From contig JAPMTX010000135.1 in the NCBI GenBank assembly GCA_026552855.1, positions 1-64,000 of the forward strand: a DNA stretch of 64,000 bases. The letters run 5' to 3'. Below are positions 42,797 through 48,519 of this stretch, one piece after another; the stretch's first letter is position 1, and each line of letters opens with the position of its first letter. The notes under the pieces were generated by a model that was given only the letters and a program-made list of their open reading frames with translations, searched no databases and had not been told where the DNA came from. A program made the translations under genes and the position numbers. The DNA is from Candidatus Methanoperedens sp. (GTDB taxonomy: Archaea > Halobacteriota > Methanosarcinia > Methanosarcinales > Methanoperedenaceae).

Positions 42797-45700
42797 TTAG
42801 GACTGACCAAGCTTCCCATCTTTATATTTCGATAGAAGATTTTTGAACCACTTCCTGCTTCGGACACTTTTGAAATCTGAGTCTTCCTCTGCCGTTTGAA
42901 TAAGGTTATGATCCAATTCAATTGCGGTGGATAGACACTTTGAAATTTCTTCGCTATCGCCATTGATAAGAGAAAGTGAGCAGGCTTTATTATACCAGGC
43001 AGTAGAATTGTTCGGGTCAATCTCTATGACTTTCTGGTATTTTTCAATCGCTTCTTCGTGCTTCTGGAGATAAGCTAAGGCAAGACCACAACTGTTATAG
43101 ACATCGGCATATGTCGGGTTAATCTCTATAGCTTTCTGGTATTTACTAATCGCTTCCTCGTACCTCTGGAGATTTGCCATGGCAAGACCGCAATTGTAGT
43201 AGGCAAATGCATTGTTCGGATCGATCTCTATAGCTTTCTTGTATTTTTCAATCGCTTCCTCGTACCTCTGGAGATTGGCTAGGACAAAGCCCGAGCCGTT
43301 ATAAGCTTTGACATAATTCGGGTCAATATCTATAGCTTTCTGGTATATCCCAACCGCTTCCTCGTACCTCTGGAGAAAGGCTAAGGCAATACCCCAGTTA
43401 TTGTAAGCATCGACATAATTCGGATTGATTTCTATAACCTTCTCATACATCTCAATCGCTTCTTCATACCTGTGGAGATTGTCTAAAGCCAGACCACAAC
43501 TGCAATAGGCATCGGCATATTTCGGGTTAATCTCTATAGCTTTCTGGTATTTACTAATCGCTTCCTCGTACCTCTGGAGATTTACCATGGCAAGACCGCA
43601 ATTGTAGCAGGCAAATGCATTGTTCGGATCTATCTCTATAGCTTTCTGGTATTTCTCAATCGCTTCCTCGTACCTCCGGAGATTGGCTAGGGCAAAGCCC
43701 GAGCCGTTATAGGCTTTGACATAATTCGGGTCAATATCTATAGCTTTCTTGTATTTTTCAATCGCTTCCTCGTACCTCTGGAGAAAGACTAAGGAAAGAC
43801 CCCAGTTATTGTAAGCATCTACATGATTCGGATTGATTTCTATAGCCTTCTTATACCTCTCAATCGCTTCTTCGTGCTTCTGGAGATTGGCTAAAGATAG
43901 ACCACAACTGCAATAGGCATCGGCATATTTCGGGTTAATCTCTATAGCTCTCTGGTATTTACTAATGGCTTCCTCGTACCTCTGGAGATTGGCTAAAGAT
44001 AGACCGCAATTGTAGCAGGCAAATGCATTGTTCGAATCTATCTCTATAGCTTTCTGGTATTTTTCAATCGCTTCTTCGTGCTTCTGGAGATAAGCCAGGG
44101 CAAGACCCCAGCCGTTATAGGCAATGGCATCTTTCGGCTTAATCTCTATAGCTTTCTTGTATTTTTCAATCGCTTCCTCGTACCTCTGGAGAAAGACTAA
44201 GCAAAGACCCCAGTTATTGTGAGCATCGACATAATTCGGATTAATATCTGTAACTTTCTGGTATTTACTAATCGCTTCTTCATACCTCTTGAGTTCGTAA
44301 AGAGCAAGACCCCAACTATTGTAAGCATCTGCATGCATGGGATCAATCTCTATAACTTTCTGGTATTTTTCAATCGCTTCTTCATATTTCTGGAGATAAG
44401 CCAGGGCAAGACCCCAGCCGTTATAGGCAATGGCATCCTTCGGATTAATCTCTATAGCTTTCTGGAATTTCTCAACCGCTTCTTCATGTCTCTGGAGAAA
44501 GACTAAGGCAAGACCCCAGCCGTTATAGGCAAATGCATTGTTCGGATTGAACTCTATCGATTTCTGGAATTTCTCAATTGCTTCCTCATACCTGTTTAGA
44601 CTAAAAAAAACATAACCCCAGTTGTTGTAAGAATAGGTATTATAGGGGTCTACATTTATAGCTTTCTTGTACCATTCAATGGACTCCTCGTATCTTTTTT
44701 GGTCGTAGTATATCCGCCCTATATTGACAAGCGTATTCGCCTCTGCCCAGGAGTCTTTAATGTCCTCATAAATAGCTATAGCTTCTTGGTAGTATTTGAG
44801 TGCCTCCTCATAGTTGCGCTCCCCCCACGCCTGTTCTGCTTTTGTGACGGCTTGGTTAGCTCTCCTGCTGGCATCATCCTTTTCTTCCACTCCTGTAGTC
44901 TTAGTACGATACGACCTGTTAGAAAAGAGAATAGGCTCAATAAACCTGTCATGTGTAAGTTCATACCATCTCGCACCAGCCCGTATCTCTGCCCTGATGA
45001 GATGCTTGCTTTCCAGGACATCTATGGCTGGGTTGGGAATGCCGCCGGTGGACTCAGGTGCTCTATACACAGTCCCGCGTGTTCCCATGGATGTTATGAG
45101 CATTTCCTCACACCATGTGCGCAGGCGTTCTTCATCTATGCAGGAAACCTGTGCTGCTGCCCTAAGGGTTTCATCATAGAACCTGGACAGTGCCCTTTCC
45201 ACATTTCCGTAGGTCTCCAGATGGTGCATGTTGATTTCCATGATGTTTTGCGGAAGTTCTTGCCACAGGTTCTGGCAGACCACCTGAAGCTGCACAGCCT
45301 CTATGAACTCCCCTGCTACTTCGATTATCTCCCCCGGAGTTGTTTCAACGCGGATTTTGAGCAGATCCTCTACAAGTTTTTCAGCCACTCCTTTTGCGAA
45401 ATATCGTCCGGTGTTTTTCAGCGGTTCTTTGATAGCCAGAAGAGCTGCATCTCTGTTCAGTCGCTCCATTCGAAAACGTGTCCTCAATCTTTCAGGCAAA
45501 AAATTAGCATAAGGCTCAATCTGAGCTATATAATCCTCTCGCATGATAAAAACAACCCGTAGAAGCTTATCTGCATCCAGAGCATCCCTGACCTGCTCGA
45601 AGAACCCTCTTCTATCTTTCCAGCGGTCCTGGTACAAAGAAAAAAGTTCCTCAAATTGATCGAATATGAAAGCGCGTGGTACAGGTAACCCCATTTCATC

Positions 45701-46090
45701 AACAGGATGCATCCTCTCGTTAAGAAACTTTGCAAGTGCCATCGTTGAAAGACTTTTTGTATCCGATACTTTCTCGTTCTCCACCCAGGTCATAAGGGTA
45801 TTAAATACGAAAATATTTGATATTTCCTCATTCTTGATTTTCCCAGTAAGCATACCTTTTACCCGAGCCACCGGAAAAACTTCAAAATTATTTTCCTTTA
45901 GCATCGGAATTAGCCTTGCATTGAGAAGCGATGTCTTGCCTGCCCCTGACTGGGCATAGACGAGAACCACATTGTGAGCGATAACTAAGGAAAGCAGATC
46001 TCTTGCTTCGCGTTCCCGCCCGAAAAAGACATTTTTATCTTTCAGTTCAAAAGGTCGGGGACCCACATAAGGTTGAAGTTCAATTGCCAC
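42797..46090 (-). CDS. nSTAND-type NTPase with about 18 TPRs (defence sensor)
   Basis: About 1097 residues from GTG 46090, where GGGGTGAT lies 7 bp upstream; a GTG at 46102 is also in frame. The N-terminus (PYVGPRPFELKDKNVFFGRE) and Walker A (YAQSGAGKTSLLNARLIPML) match novel-STAND NTPases, and RAFIFDQFEELFSLY gives Walker B. A winged-helix/linker segment (WYELTHDRFIEPILFSNRS) comes next. About 18 tandem 34-residue TPRs (YNxxGLALxxLQRYEEAIxKYQKAIEIxP) fill the rest. STAND ATPases with TPRs bind phage proteins and then oligomerise to switch on an effector. Here the effector is the SIR2 gene, overlapping by 11 bp. Confidence 0.9.
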   Translation of the reverse strand: MAIELQPYVGPRPFELKDKNVFFGREREARDLLSLVIAHNVVLVYAQSGAGKTSLLNARLIPMLKENNFEVFPVARVKGMLTGKIKNEEISNIFVFNTLMTWVENEKVSDTKSLSTMALAKFLNERMHPVDEMGLPVPRAFIFDQFEELFSLYQDRWKDRRGFFEQVRDALDADKLLRVVFIMREDYIAQIEPYANFLPERLRTRFRMERLNRDAALLAIKEPLKNTGRYFAKGVAEKLVEDLLKIRVETTPGEIIEVAGEFIEAVQLQVVCQNLWQELPQNIMEINMHHLETYGNVERALSRFYDETLRAAAQVSCIDEERLRTWCEEMLITSMGTRGTVYRAPESTGGIPNPAIDVLESKHLIRAEIRAGARWYELTHDRFIEPILFSNRSYRTKTTGVEEKDDASRRANQAVTKAEQAWGERNYEEALKYYQEAIAIYEDIKDSWAEANTLVNIGRIYYDQKRYEESIEWYKKAINVDPYNTYSYNNWGYVFFSLNRYEEAIEKFQKSIEFNPNNAFAYNGWGLALVFLQRHEEAVEKFQKAIEINPKDAIAYNGWGLALAYLQKYEEAIEKYQKVIEIDPMHADAYNSWGLALYELKRYEEAISKYQKVTDINPNYVDAHNNWGLCLVFLQRYEEAIEKYKKAIEIKPKDAIAYNGWGLALAYLQKHEEAIEKYQKAIEIDSNNAFACYNCGLSLANLQRYEEAISKYQRAIEINPKYADAYCSCGLSLANLQKHEEAIERYKKAIEINPNHVDAYNNWGLSLVFLQRYEEAIEKYKKAIDIDPNYVKAYNGSGFALANLRRYEEAIEKYQKAIEIDPNNAFACYNCGLAMVNLQRYEEAISKYQKAIEINPKYADAYCSCGLALDNLHRYEEAIEMYEKVIEINPNYVDAYNNWGIALAFLQRYEEAVGIYQKAIDIDPNYVKAYNGSGFVLANLQRYEEAIEKYKKAIEIDPNNAFAYYNCGLAMANLQRYEEAISKYQKAIEINPTYADVYNSCGLALAYLQKHEEAIEKYQKVIEIDPNNSTAWYNKACSLSLINGDSEEISKCLSTAIELDHNLIQTAEEDSDFKSVRSRKWFKNLLSKYKDGKLGQS
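43202..44017 (-). repeat. Two tandem 408-bp blocks of four TPRs each
   Basis: TPRs 9-12 (43610-44017) and 13-16 (43202-43609) follow the same order of distinct first residues: CYNCG, YCSCG, YNNWG, YNGSG. A third block begins at 43201 with YYNCG. The period is exactly 4 x 102 bp. Confidence 0.85.
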
Positions 46091-46964
46091 AGTTAAAATC
46101 ACCCCATCTTCGTTTCAAATCTGCGGAAAACTCGCGGCAATCCCCCCAGTAAACACGGATATCGAGCTTGCCAAAATAGCTATCCAGATATTCCTGTACT
46201 TTCTCTTTTTGTGCCTCTGAGCTAGGCAAAAGCTGGACAGATACGTGAGCCCGACTTAGACTCTTCTCAAAGTAGCTGGCAAGACTTCGCAAAAGTACAC
46301 GTAAGTTCCAATCTGCAATCCGGTATCCTAGAAACAGAAGCGAAGTCCCTGCTAATGCTTCCTGAACCCGGGCAGGAATTAGATCCTGTTCTCTGGATAT
46401 ATTTACAAGGAAGTCCAAATAATCGTCCTCTGTTAGAACTATCGACTCTGGCGTTTCATAGAACCCATGAAGATGAAATACTAAGGGATTTGATACTGTG
46501 GGATTTAATTCTGTAACTGTTGATATGCGCCTGATGTATTTGTTCCACTGGCACAGTTCCAACCTTGGGGTTTTGTTTCGGTTTTTGAGCGCCTGTAACA
46601 TAAAATTATCATAATTTGTAGTGATATATACCGGAAGCGGAAGATCTGCCAGAACGCCGTGAGGCTCATCGGGATTATTAAAATATTGTAAATTAACTTC
46701 TTCCAGACATTTCCTGATTACCTCTTTCATTTTTTCTTTTGGGGTCATAGGATCTTCAGTTACGGCTAGAAATTGAGCGACCTGTGCTAAATCACTGCAA
46801 TTCTCCAGAGGAAAATTATACTCCTTAGCCCATTCTCTTGCGATCTGCGACCCCAGAGGAATTTTTCCAAAACATGCACCTGCTCCAAGAAATGGAGTAC
46901 ATTTTCCATCCTTAATCCTCCTGAGAAGGAGTTTCCAATCTTTATCTTCCAGCGTGTTAGGCAT
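46080..46964 (-). CDS. SIR2-domain protein (probable NADase effector)
   Basis: 294 residues from ATG 46964, which has a perfect GGAGGT 6 bp upstream; an in-frame TTG at 46979 is less likely. SIR2-type motifs: FLGAGACFGKIPLGSQIAREW, ITTNYDNFMLQAL and LVFHLHG, the SIR2_2 form found in defence systems. LLFLGYRIADWNLRVLLRSL completes the Rossmann part. The catalytic region is intact by eye (N in TTNYD, H in FHLHG). In Thoeris, DSR and SIR2-STAND systems such proteins destroy NAD to stop phage replication. It is the middle gene of the operon. Confidence 0.9.
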   Translation of the reverse strand: MPNTLEDKDWKLLLRRIKDGKCTPFLGAGACFGKIPLGSQIAREWAKEYNFPLENCSDLAQVAQFLAVTEDPMTPKEKMKEVIRKCLEEVNLQYFNNPDEPHGVLADLPLPVYITTNYDNFMLQALKNRNKTPRLELCQWNKYIRRISTVTELNPTVSNPLVFHLHGFYETPESIVLTEDDYLDFLVNISREQDLIPARVQEALAGTSLLFLGYRIADWNLRVLLRSLASYFEKSLSRAHVSVQLLPSSEAQKEKVQEYLDSYFGKLDIRVYWGDCREFSADLKRRWGDFNCGN

Positions 46965-47005
46965 TGCTAACCTCCGCAATAAAACAGTTATGCGACGATG
47001 ATATG

Positions 47006-47650
47006 CTACGGCTGATCTTCTCTCTCATGCTCACCGATTGCAGCGTCAGTCTCCTCTGCGCTTTTCTTCGATTCCGCATCTGCCCCAGTCTTGGGCTTCT
47101 GCAGGGGATTCTCTCCTACCTCAGTCTCCTTCAGCAATGTCACGGCTACTTCTCTGAGTTTAAGCACTGCCGGCTCCGAGAAAAGTCCAGCCAGGGCAGC
47201 CAGTGCCATAAAGCCAAAGGGGCTTGTTTCAGTTACTGTTGCCGTGGGGGAGAAGAACCCGCCTCGAATAATGAGATAGAAAACAAGTCCAATGCTTGCC
47301 CCGACAAAGGGCAGCAGGATATACATGGCTAGCCAGCTCCACACCAATTCACGATGACCCACATACTTATAGAACGACCGGAGAGCGTGCACCATACTGC
47401 CCAGAGCCCCGGCGAGCATCACATTGAGAAGGGATCGTACCTCACCAAAAATCGGAAATTTCCAGAGATAGACAACGGCGTCACAACCCGAATCTTTTGT
47501 CACACATGGCCAAAACAGCACGAGACTTGACAGGAGGAGTACGGTGAACAGAATCAGGTAGCCCATAATCAAAACAATGACCTTAGGGCCGACATGATAT
47601 TCACCTGGTCCTTGCCTAAGCGCTTCAGTTCTTTTAGGTTCGTTTACCAC
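47006..47650 (-). CDS. Four-helix membrane protein, first gene of the SIR2/STAND operon
   Basis: 214 residues, GTG start with GGTGGG upstream. Helices at ~23-46 (VIVLIMGYLILFTVLLLSSLVLF), ~75-92 (LLNVMLAGALGSMVHAL), ~105-130 (WSWLAMYILLPFVGASIGLVFYLII) and ~145-160. A cytoplasmic charged tail ends EHEREDQP. The FMALAALAGLFSEPAVLKLREV segment recalls a widespread uncharacterised membrane family. It lies 41 bp from the SIR2 gene. It may anchor the system or be a second effector. Confidence 0.7.
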   Translation of the reverse strand: MVNEPKRTEALRQGPGEYHVGPKVIVLIMGYLILFTVLLLSSLVLFWPCVTKDSGCDAVVYLWKFPIFGEVRSLLNVMLAGALGSMVHALRSFYKYVGHRELVWSWLAMYILLPFVGASIGLVFYLIIRGGFFSPTATVTETSPFGFMALAALAGLFSEPAVLKLREVAVTLLKETEVGENPLQKPKTGADAESKKSAEETDAAIGEHEREDQP

Positions 47651-47875
47651 GTTTTTCCCACCATTTGATTATTATGAACTACGGGCTAATATATATTTCT
47701 TTTGCTCTATTAATTTTTTAGCCGAATCTTTTTTGGGGATAGTTCCCATTTCTCATATTTAAAGAGCAAAAGCTCGACAGTTTCATAGTATATTCCTTAA
47801 CACCTGCTCATCTTACTCTCTCCTTTATTCGCTTGTTTTAGCTTTTATCGACAGGAGGAGCATGCAGTTTAATCG

Positions 47876-48301
47876 CTAAGGGATATCCCTTGGGTGATAG
47901 ATTTCTATCCCAACCCGTCCTTTTATTCGCAATAAAAAATCATCTTCGTCCAGAGATACGAGGACAGTATGGTGCTTTAGCGCCGTCTCAAGATAAAGAG
48001 AATCTGTTGCATAAGTTCCGTACAGCGCCCCCGTGTATCCCGTACTGGTGCAGAAATGATTGTCACATATTTCCCATATAGAAACCATACGCCTGAGATT
48101 ATTCTCCTGTGTCTTTCCTGCTTCCATTCCCAGGTATTTTGTTATGTTCCGTATGACCTCGGTCAGACAGATGGTAGGCTCAATTAAATAGAATTCGCCA
48201 TCAGCTACCGCCTGTATTACTCGCTTGCAATCAGCAGAATAAGGCTCGTTCCCTTTTGTTGAGGCGATAAAAACATTGGCATCAATGCAGATTGGTTTCA
48301 T
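47876..48301 (-). CDS. PIN-domain ribonuclease toxin (VapC-like)
   Basis: 141 residues. Acidic quartet: D8 (ICIDANVFIAS), E47 region (TICLTEVIRN), D in ATDSLYLETAL and the final LDEDDFL. It cleaves RNA. ATGA overlap with the antitoxin-like gene upstream. Confidence 0.88.
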   Translation of the reverse strand: MKPICIDANVFIASTKGNEPYSADCKRVIQAVADGEFYLIEPTICLTEVIRNITKYLGMEAGKTQENNLRRMVSIWEICDNHFCTSTGYTGALYGTYATDSLYLETALKHHTVLVSLDEDDFLLRIKGRVGIEIYHPRDIP

Positions 48302-48519
48302 TCATTGTGTCTCCTGTCCTTTTTCGTCATCTCAAGGACAGAAGAGGCTGTTTTTGGCCATTCCTTTTCGAGTTTTTTTGCTTCAGCAAGCCATGCTCTG
48401 GCTGCCGATTTAGCCTCCTCTCCTTTTATTCGGCTGCCGCTTTCCAGAACCATCTTTCTGAGGTCATGGATTTGTTCGTCTATGGATGCTATTTTCTCGA
48501 TAATTTCTCCATCTGTCAT
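48298..48519 (-). CDS. Small antitoxin-like partner of the PIN gene
   Basis: 73 residues, all helical and charged, with a coiled-coil-like IIEKIASIDEQIHDLRKMV. No DNA-binding fold is seen. Position and overlap mark it as the antitoxin. A TATA-like TATTTAAA lies upstream on the minus strand at ~48545. Confidence 0.7.
   Translation of the reverse strand: MTDGEIIEKIASIDEQIHDLRKMVLESGSRIKGEEAKSAARAWLAEAKKLEKEWPKTASSVLEMTKKDRRHNE

Follow-up and report, generated by a model that had tools for sequence, protein, structure and literature searches.

A split SIR2–nSTAND1 gene pair with an optional membrane-protein partner in Candidatus Methanoperedens: a candidate sensor-triggered NADase module

Three neighboring genes on a contig of Candidatus Methanoperedens sp. 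raise the question of whether they form a single immune system, and of which of them make up its core. The window, that is, the whole stretch of 64,000 nucleotides that was analyzed (contig JAPMTX010000135.1), had been interpreted from its letters alone (hereafter the sequence-only reading) as carrying a membrane protein (TM) gene, a SIR2 gene, and an nSTAND–TPR gene in one operon of likely antiviral function. An open reading frame (ORF) listing confirmed all three genes on the minus strand between positions 42797 and 47650, as that reading had them (Table 1). Its 41-bp gap between the TM and SIR2 genes was reproduced with the SIR2 start at ATG 46964, and its 11-bp overlap between SIR2 and nSTAND with the nSTAND start at GTG 46090. 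The longest SIR2 ORF starts upstream at TTG 46979, and GTG 46090 was preferred for nSTAND because its relatives start just before QxYVGPRPF.

Table 1. Features of the operon and its immediate surroundings in the window
Feature	Coordinates	Strand	Details and basis
TM-family membrane protein, first gene	47006..47650	-	214 aa; ORF, hydrophobic segments, homologues
SIR2_2 NADase-type effector (predicted)	46080..46964	-	294 aa; Pfam SIR2_2, AF2 model
Catalytic Asn117 codon, motif TTNYD	46614..46616	-	alignments including SeThsA
Catalytic His164 codon, motif FHLHG	46473..46475	-	alignments
nSTAND1 NTPase with C-terminal TPR array	42797..46090	-	1097 aa from GTG 46090; ORF, Pfam
nSTAND1 NTPase domain, residues 7-330 matched	45101..46072	-	Pfam, 126.5 bits
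TPR array (presumed sensor), 102-bp tandem units and 408-bp higher-order repeat	43011..44593	-	
Possible archaeal promoter element, AAATATATAT-like	47689-47698	-	upstream of TM gene; by eye, inference only
Possible ribosome-binding site GGTGGG	47657-47662	-	upstream of TM gene; by eye, inference only
PIN gene	47876-48301		Pfam PF01850, E 1.9e-6
73-aa ORF by PIN gene	48298-48519		no Pfam match

The SIR2 protein was matched by Pfam SIR2_2 (E 1.7e-28) and by no other Pfam domain, and it retains Asn117 and His164, both of which are invariant across a 30-sequence alignment. Its AF2 model was confident (pLDDT 91.6), and a fold search with this model ranked ThsA (Z 25.0 and 23.1) above KomC (22.5) and DSR2 (21.4); the PDB titles of these matches mention helical assemblies as well as NAD-bound forms. 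Structures of Avs5 stood lower in the ranking (Z 19.3 and 18.8). ThsA was also the best PADLOC match (79 bits), with positions 14-232 of the 478 in the model covered. Among homologues, both residues were present in 76 of 90 SIR2 rows, a count that takes in three duplicate contigs and one fragment. In the 86 non-redundant loci, which exclude duplicate contigs yet include the identical SIR2 sequences of L023 and L024, the catalytic Asn was retained in 78 and missing in eight, all of them coupled to a CHAT protease, and the catalytic His was substituted in two CHAT-free loci (Lys in L028, Tyr in L057). SIR2 may therefore not be a NADase family-wide. Loss of the catalytic Asn and His across homologues, which the sequence-only reading would have counted against itself, thus affects part of the family and leaves the window protein intact.

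The third gene encodes an NTPase matched by nSTAND1 (PF20703, E 2.1e-35), its N-terminal region scoring 126.5 bits against a cut-off of 27.1, whereas the nSTAND3 profile remained below its own cut-off (18.1 bits versus 27.2). A Walker A-like SGAGKTS and a Walker B-like FIFDQFEE were recognized in the domain by eye. The array of about 18 TPRs proposed earlier was borne out by Pfam TPR_1 matches in 18 stretches, with 16 regular units of 34 aa (102 bp). Tandem Repeats Finder reported 15.5 copies of the 102-bp unit and a 408-bp higher-order period (86% match), and units are up to 95% identical at the DNA level. The array has expanded recently, as would be expected for a changing sensor. When nSTAND1 proteins were scored by repeat type, the three TPR-type proteins (window, L039, L044) had no internal membrane helix, and 21 of the 25 WD40-type proteins had one (stricter threshold, duplicates counted).

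To compare gene order, 79 named loci were picked by SIR2 similarity alone. In 73 of these, from many phyla, nSTAND1 lies downstream of SIR2 as a separate, co-oriented ORF at most 1.5 kb away; of the six loci with no nSTAND1 call, two are contig ends, one has no SIR2 ORF, and three have no detected nSTAND1. Judged by these alignments and gene orders, the pairing goes beyond chance and the conserved unit is the SIR2–nSTAND1 pair, shared by very different bacteria and archaea. Effector and sensor are indeed split between two overlapping ORFs, as had been noted, and the pair is conserved, but the kinship to Avs5 suggested at the same time did not hold, given the nSTAND1 domain and a SIR2 fold nearer to those of ThsA, KomC, and DSR2. 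The nearest SIR2 relatives were found in anaerolineal and planctomycete metagenome-assembled genomes, followed by Methanosarcina-type loci, and many host genomes belong to Chloroflexota and Actinomycetota. The system had no match in two congeners of the window organism, and its distribution is patchy across domains.

At an E-value limit of 0.01, nothing in Pfam, PADLOC, or NCBIfam matched the TM protein. It has three strong hydrophobic segments; the four helices assigned to it earlier are plausible and unproven, a low-confidence AF2 model from five sequences (pLDDT 53) giving five helices of at least 13 residues. The five family sequences share 28 invariant residues. A homologue precedes SIR2 as in the window in L037, L044, and L047 (Brocadia, Ignavibacteriaceae, and Chromatiaceae), and another lies downstream of nSTAND1 in L050 (a Terriglobia genome). 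Slot and strand match, with a short gap of 26-74 bp, in four phyla (the window and three more). Conservation of the three-gene order in relatives, proposed earlier as a check, was therefore found in three other phyla, but fixed membership of the membrane gene was not, as it occurs in 4/79 named SIR2 loci and is missing from 75/79. The family was found in 3/149, 6/199, and 4/398 genomes searched (1-3%, seed genomes counted), and members also stand alone in other genomes. Fragments were detected in two Methanosarcina-type loci (48 residues at 60% in L021, 84 residues at 60% in L026), and the gene was not found in the other six such loci searched. From this comparison, the membrane gene is a recurrent but optional accessory, one of several exchangeable add-ons. 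An anchor role had been considered since TPR-type nSTAND1 proteins lack a helix and most WD40-type proteins bear one. A pure anchor role is weakened because the TM gene is present in L037, L047, and L050, where nSTAND1 already bears a helix; likewise, L039 has a TPR-type nSTAND1 without a helix and no TM gene beside SIR2.

Elsewhere, the slot before SIR2 is taken by a TM-receiver protein (L034, L045), by a CHAT protease, or by nothing recognized. CHAT occurs as a separate gene in this slot in L096, L106, L109, L111, and L112 and is fused to SIR2 in 16 loci, and SIR2-CHAT is present in most Methanosarcina-type loci where the TM gene is fragmentary or not found. The SIR2 Asn is lost in 8/21 CHAT-coupled loci versus 0/65 loci without detected CHAT (Fisher test, p 3.8e-6, ancestry ignored). 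The tree gave two Asn-loss events and three CHAT changes, and a paired test with two to three usable pairs was not significant; as reconstructed, the association goes back to two evolutionary events. In L026, SIR2 is stand-alone and decayed, and it too carries Thr at the Asn position, so Asn loss is not linked to CHAT fusion alone. Intact TM (five loci) and CHAT (21 loci) were never found together, which by our own estimate is not significant at these numbers.

The window operon has polysaccharide-type and trp genes as its neighbors. The PIN pair described beside it is present as a PIN gene and a small ORF, but the PIN gene shows no conserved association with the system: the window copy has no counterpart among the ORFs of the examined loci, the PIN beside SIR2 in L035 is unrelated to it, and a promoter-like sequence was recognized by eye for the TM gene itself. 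The PIN gene was rejected as a component on these grounds, and the pair is probably only a neighbor. Defense neighbors were sought around nine near loci hand-picked from the 79 (64 flanking proteins, 20 of them compared singly with PADLOC). A restriction-modification pair was found in 1/9, namely L034, the closest planctomycete locus, where type II matches to a restriction enzyme (288 bits) and to a methyltransferase lie 3-6 kb upstream of SIR2. For the 64 proteins, NCBIfam listed 352 families, of which the first 25 were housekeeping. The DpdF match of an L037 neighbor (PADLOC, 5e-250) is ambiguous, NCBIfam giving a RecQ helicase among the 64 proteins, as are matches to an SNF2-type helicase (L035), a UvrD-type helicase (L039), kinase models (L034), and CARF_AAA_HTH (L045). 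Strong PADLOC matches outside L034 were to helicase and regulator models, which ordinary helicases and regulators also hit. The defense-island signal among the nine near loci is weak and does not amount to evidence of an island. The trp genes (48.6-51.4 kb) are kept in three relatives, two of the same genus and one of the same family; beyond trpA, the stretches fetched from these genomes, the third of which ends at trpA, gave no match to the window, so the comparison indicates a variable region and no simple empty site. A plasmid search with the window TM protein gave no match, and searches with two TM homologues returned one and the same Streptomyces record. Viral contigs yielded three distant SIR2 matches (25-27%) and no TM match, and six phage records showed partial SIR2 similarity; no sign of a phage-borne operon was seen in these three kinds of search.

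We consider it probable that the operon encodes a suicide module in which a sensor triggers a NADase and whose partner, here the membrane protein, is exchangeable, the nSTAND1-TPR sensor and the separate SIR2 NADase forming a two-gene immune core to which the membrane protein would be accessory. The TPR superhelix would hold the NTPase off until an invader-derived or stress ligand binds; ATP-driven oligomerization of nSTAND1 would then recruit and cluster SIR2 subunits, which would hydrolyze NAD+ and bring about cell arrest or death ahead of invader spread. The membrane protein may bring the TPR-type complex, itself cytosolic, to the membrane, or it may provide a second, membrane-acting arm. 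An antiviral role is our inference for this module. More tentatively, and with rather less than even confidence, the loci might represent a cross-domain immune chassis not described before, whose SIR2 subunit would act as a NADase and also as the platform on which an interchangeable second weapon docks. That weapon would be the membrane protein in the window and in three phyla of bacteria, a membrane protein with a receiver in other loci, and, in Methanosarcina and Chloroflexota, a CHAT protease. The NADase of Methanosarcina would then be off (Asn to Thr) and the protease arm would act alone, a natural effector replacement, and a WD40-type membrane helix with positive-inside bias would place the sensor outside the cell, the TPR-type sensor of the window lying inside.

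Three other explanations were weighed against the suicide module. SIR2 might be mainly a docking adaptor from nSTAND1 to an exchangeable second effector, with the membrane protein as the real killer here, e.g., by membrane disturbance. The varying slot before SIR2, the concentration of Asn loss in CHAT-coupled loci, and the fragmentary or missing TM gene where SIR2-CHAT is mostly present point this way, but the Asn is intact in the window and in every locus without detected CHAT, which argues for selection on catalysis. In addition, the few loss events and CHAT changes with their non-significant paired test, the Thr of the decayed stand-alone SIR2 in L026, and the lack of a detected second effector in most SIR2–nSTAND1 loci count against the adaptor, which we regard as unlikely.

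A similarly low probability is given to a switch for programmed death or NAD homeostasis, linked to stress or development, in place of antiviral immunity. SIR2 and STAND proteins have known antiphage use, which points to parasite conflict, as do the patchy cross-domain spread, the expanded repeat sensor, and the one restriction-modification neighbor; clear defense neighbors are nevertheless few, many hosts are Chloroflexota and Actinomycetota, and the definition of nSTAND1 comes from a set of conflict and apoptosis systems linked by the authors, in the available part of their article, to multicellular prokaryotes (PMC8195603). A chance neighborhood in which the TM gene serves another function is very improbable: although the family is also solitary elsewhere and missing from most named loci, the constant slot, strand, and gap in four phyla contrast with its rarity in genomes, and SIR2 and nSTAND1 are paired almost throughout. 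As a suicide module with SIR2 effector and STAND sensor in two proteins, the system would allow activation to be tested in vitro with either protein by itself; its relatives display an apparent natural swap from NADase to protease. To our knowledge, STAND immunity in archaea has been little studied, and Methanosarcina, for which genetic tools exist, harbors relatives of the operon.

Among known systems, Thoeris supplies the top PADLOC and fold match of the window SIR2 domain, but ThsA has its SIR2 fused to SLOG/STALD, whereas the 294-aa window protein is SIR2_2 only and its partner is nSTAND1; no TIR match was listed by Pfam in the five window ORFs scanned around the system. KomC (Kongming; stand-alone SIR2) and DSR2 (N-terminal SIR2) have a similar NADase fold and partners unlike that of the window, and neither is known to be paired with a STAND protein; DSR1 and DSR2 are moreover long single proteins with N-terminal SIR2. 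Avs5 shares the SIR2 effector, the STAND NTPase, and a C-terminal repeat sensor (a TPR array in the window), and its available description gives it C-terminal helical repeats (TPR/Sel1) and NAD+ hydrolysis on a phage trigger (PMC12931631). It differs in having nSTAND3, with SIR2 and STAND together according to a PDB entry title, and the window adds an array of 16-18 TPRs and a membrane gene; because the window has two genes and nSTAND1 instead of nSTAND3, it is not a split Avs5. The EAD-based systems of Kaur et al. 2021 (EACC1) likewise combine an nSTAND1 NTPase with modular effectors and variable sensors, and the part of that article available describes, for the EAD10/TPR/GreA-C/PIN system, SIR2 as one of 13 effectors, not as a separate gene paired with nSTAND1 (PMC8195603). 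Pfam listed no EAD in the SIR2 protein or the N-terminal 400 aa of nSTAND1, a scan that weak EADs could escape. CHAT/caspase-like STAND systems resemble the operon through those of its relatives that carry CHAT, either as a SIR2 fusion or in the partner position; for the window SIR2, TM protein, and nSTAND1 N-terminus, Pfam listed no CHAT. By class, the window SIR2 has the Asn/His pair of the SIR2 NADases, and its partner belongs with nSTAND1 through an above-cut-off PF20703 score.

Three minus-strand ORFs follow one another in the window, encoding a membrane protein, a SIR2_2 protein, and an nSTAND1-TPR protein, and the 41-bp gap and 11-bp overlap between these genes described in the sequence-only reading were reproduced with the start codons used here. 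The membrane protein gave zero matches at E 0.01 in Pfam, PADLOC, and NCBIfam. The host assembly comprises 3.4 Mb in 211 contigs (completeness 99.9%, contamination 6.5%), and the trpB gene adjoining the system was 92% and 89% identical to those of two congeners, which argues against a stray contig. By eye, the operon is flanked by polysaccharide-type genes and trp genes. The SIR2 of the operon was not found in two congeners, and the region past trpA had no match to the corresponding congener region. The ORFs of all other loci examined included no homologue of the PIN protein encoded in the window.

Coordinates of the operon, associated features, and a restriction gene set in a related locus (window positions unless a locus is named)
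Feature	Position	Strand	Remarks
214-aa membrane protein	47006-47650	minus	ORF
SIR2_2 protein	46080-46964 from ATG	minus	ORF; Pfam SIR2_2 E 1.7e-28
nSTAND1 NTPase with long TPR array	42797-46090	minus	ORF; Pfam nSTAND1 E 2.1e-35, 18 TPR_1 stretches
408-bp higher-order repeat (4 TPRs)	43044-44530		within the array
PIN-domain gene and 73-aa ORF, 4-bp overlap	47876-48519	minus	VapBC-like pair
Type II restriction enzyme, methyltransferase, kinase-type gene	L034:4176-8621		a few kb upstream of SIR2-nSTAND1 pair, planctomycete MAG

Relatives were collected in one SIR2-alignment scan of a species-genome collection, in which linkage to nSTAND1 played no part. Retaining the best 80 of 98 confirmed relatives gave 79 loci; three of these (L036, L038, L042) are second copies of contigs that were also collected as loci outside the 79, and several genomes contribute more than one locus. 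The loci from these best 80 span Planctomycetota, Chloroflexota, Actinomycetota, Acidobacteriota, Pseudomonadota, Ignavibacteriota, Nitrososphaerota, and others, and in 73 of the 79 an nSTAND1 ORF lay on the same strand within 1.5 kb after SIR2. The six exceptions are two loci at a contig edge, one without a SIR2 ORF by HMM, and three without a detected nSTAND1. The SIR2-nSTAND1 pair is a unit. With longest-ORF starts the two ORFs overlap in many pairs, frequently by 4 bp. The same pair was present on two large replicons of the plasmid collection (Nonomuraea and Ensifer), and same-order genomes with related loci include Methanosarcina types. Two tandem SIR2 genes precede nSTAND1 in L058, L065, and L097 (Verrucomicrobiota, Nitrososphaerota, Planctomycetota).

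An intact gene for a relative of the membrane protein (TM family) was present in the window and in four of the 79 loci from the best 80 of 98 relatives. In Brocadia (L037), Ignavibacteriaceae (L044), and Chromatiaceae (L047) it precedes SIR2 by 38-74 bp, and in a Terriglobia MAG (L050) it comes 17 bp after nSTAND1; the three-gene order proposed from the window recurs in the first three but is not general among relatives. Two Methanosarcina-type loci, L021 and L026, keep fragments of the TM gene, and no TM gene was found in the six other such loci searched. Five TM sequences have 28 invariant residues in common, and TM proteins frequently carry C-terminal additions (CBS in L044 by Pfam; PASTA- and IPT-like by eye). 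The TM-bearing loci are scattered on the SIR2 tree, with seven changes required when fragments are scored as present. The family is rare in genomes overall, occurring in 5 of 392, 3 of 149, 6 of 199, and 4 of 398 genomes (seed or own genome included, at differing thresholds), and for the other TM genes the short flanks examined contained neither SIR2 nor nSTAND1. TM is therefore a scattered membrane family, recruited occasionally by the SIR2-nSTAND1 core. In the Scalindua locus L119 (G399) a short TM-family ORF lies ~300 bp from a gene that is TIR-like by eye. In L137 (G574) a TM-family gene is followed by SH3-type and patatin-like genes (by eye), possibly another system with the same membrane partner. 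In L034 and L045 the accessory position before SIR2 is taken up by a protein that has one helix and a receiver-like domain (in L034 by Pfam, Response_reg E 1.9e-11; alike by eye in L045).

The catalytic residues Asn117 and His164 were invariant in an alignment of 30 relatives, but their conservation did not hold throughout: 76 of 90 rows retained the two together (a count that takes in three duplicate contigs and one fragment), Asn was lost in 8 of 86 non-redundant loci, and His was replaced in two CHAT-free loci (L028, L057). In L028 (same phylum, family f9) the His is Lys; a DUF4062-NB-ARC-TPR protein lies before this SIR2, and the nSTAND1 after it is itself fused to DUF4062-NB-ARC-TPR. DUF4062 was recently reported as an NADase (PMC13174449).

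A CHAT protease was coupled to SIR2 in 21 of the 86 loci, fused in 16 and encoded just upstream as a separate gene in five. Within fusions it is C-terminal to SIR2 in Methanosarcina-type loci and N-terminal in Chloroflexota, and four of the upstream proteins (L096, L109, L111, L112) bear a C-terminal FGE-sulfatase domain; in other STAND systems, DGRs target FGE/CLec domains (PMC10907252). Loss of Asn was confined to CHAT-coupled loci (8/21 vs 0/65 other loci) and represents two events on the tree, in two CHAT lineages. The Methanosarcina-type loci L022-L027 encode SIR2-CHAT fusions with Asn replaced by Thr. In L021 and L026 the His and Cys motifs of CHAT were observed. Of the Methanosarcina-type loci, only L021 has kept a complete stand-alone SIR2 next to nSTAND1; the gene persists as fragments in L024, L025, L026 (also Thr), and L029, and none was found in L022, L023, and L027. 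It looks as though a protease has taken over from an NADase.

The TPR array contains 16 evenly spaced 34-aa units with DNA identity of up to 95% (mean 75%) and a 408-bp super-repeat with an 86% match, a sign of recent unequal recombination. These repeats point to recent expansion of the array, as would be expected of a changing recognition surface. The nSTAND1 C-termini across loci were WD40-like, TPR, or unassigned in our repeat scan. A simple hydropathy scan placed a membrane helix past the NTPase in 45 of 82 nSTAND1 proteins, and the more positively charged N-side in 44 of these 45 suggests a cytosolic NTPase and an external sensor; the window protein has no such helix (maximum 0.57).

Anatomy, conservation, and catalytic residues are established, and the mechanism is a proposal: the TPRs would bind a ligand, NTP would drive nSTAND1 assembly, SIR2 would cluster, and NAD+ would be lost, leading to abortive death, while the TM protein could localise the complex or contribute a membrane arm. 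The same parts could instead serve stress- or development-linked death or an NAD-homeostasis switch, and this is considered rather unlikely. Nine near loci were scanned for defence neighbours, and in one of them, L034 (among the closest relatives), genes for a type II restriction enzyme and a methyltransferase lie 3-6 kb upstream; the remaining PADLOC matches were to helicase, kinase, and regulator models, which ordinary proteins also fit. The 25 families that head the NCBIfam list of 352 for the 64 neighbouring proteins of these loci were housekeeping. These neighbourhoods tip the balance little, and antiviral immunity, which the sequence-only reading considered likely, is the putative function preferred here.

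The nSTAND1 family was defined in PMC8195603, in which SIR2 is one of 13 effectors in a different system, and this was the only source to surface in the literature searched for SIR2 with nSTAND1 or nSTAND with WD40. The word SIR2 is absent from the main text of PMC7159879 (whole-word search). Titles and abstract openings among the matches listed, mainly of open-access papers, contained no description of a SIR2-nSTAND1 gene pair; the pair may have been mentioned earlier. The AF2 model of the SIR2 protein was confident (pLDDT 91.6), and its Asn aligned with the TTNYD motif of SeThsA; PDB names record mutated residues H171 in DSR2 and H146 in KomC. The nearest solved structures were SeThsA (Z 25.0), BcThsA (23.1), KomC (22.5), and DSR2 (21.4), whereas those of Avs5 scored lower (Z 19.3 and 18.8). 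The window NTPase matched nSTAND1 at 126.5 bits and nSTAND3 at only 18.1 bits, under the cut-off, whereas Avs5 has an nSTAND3 NTPase (PMC12931631).
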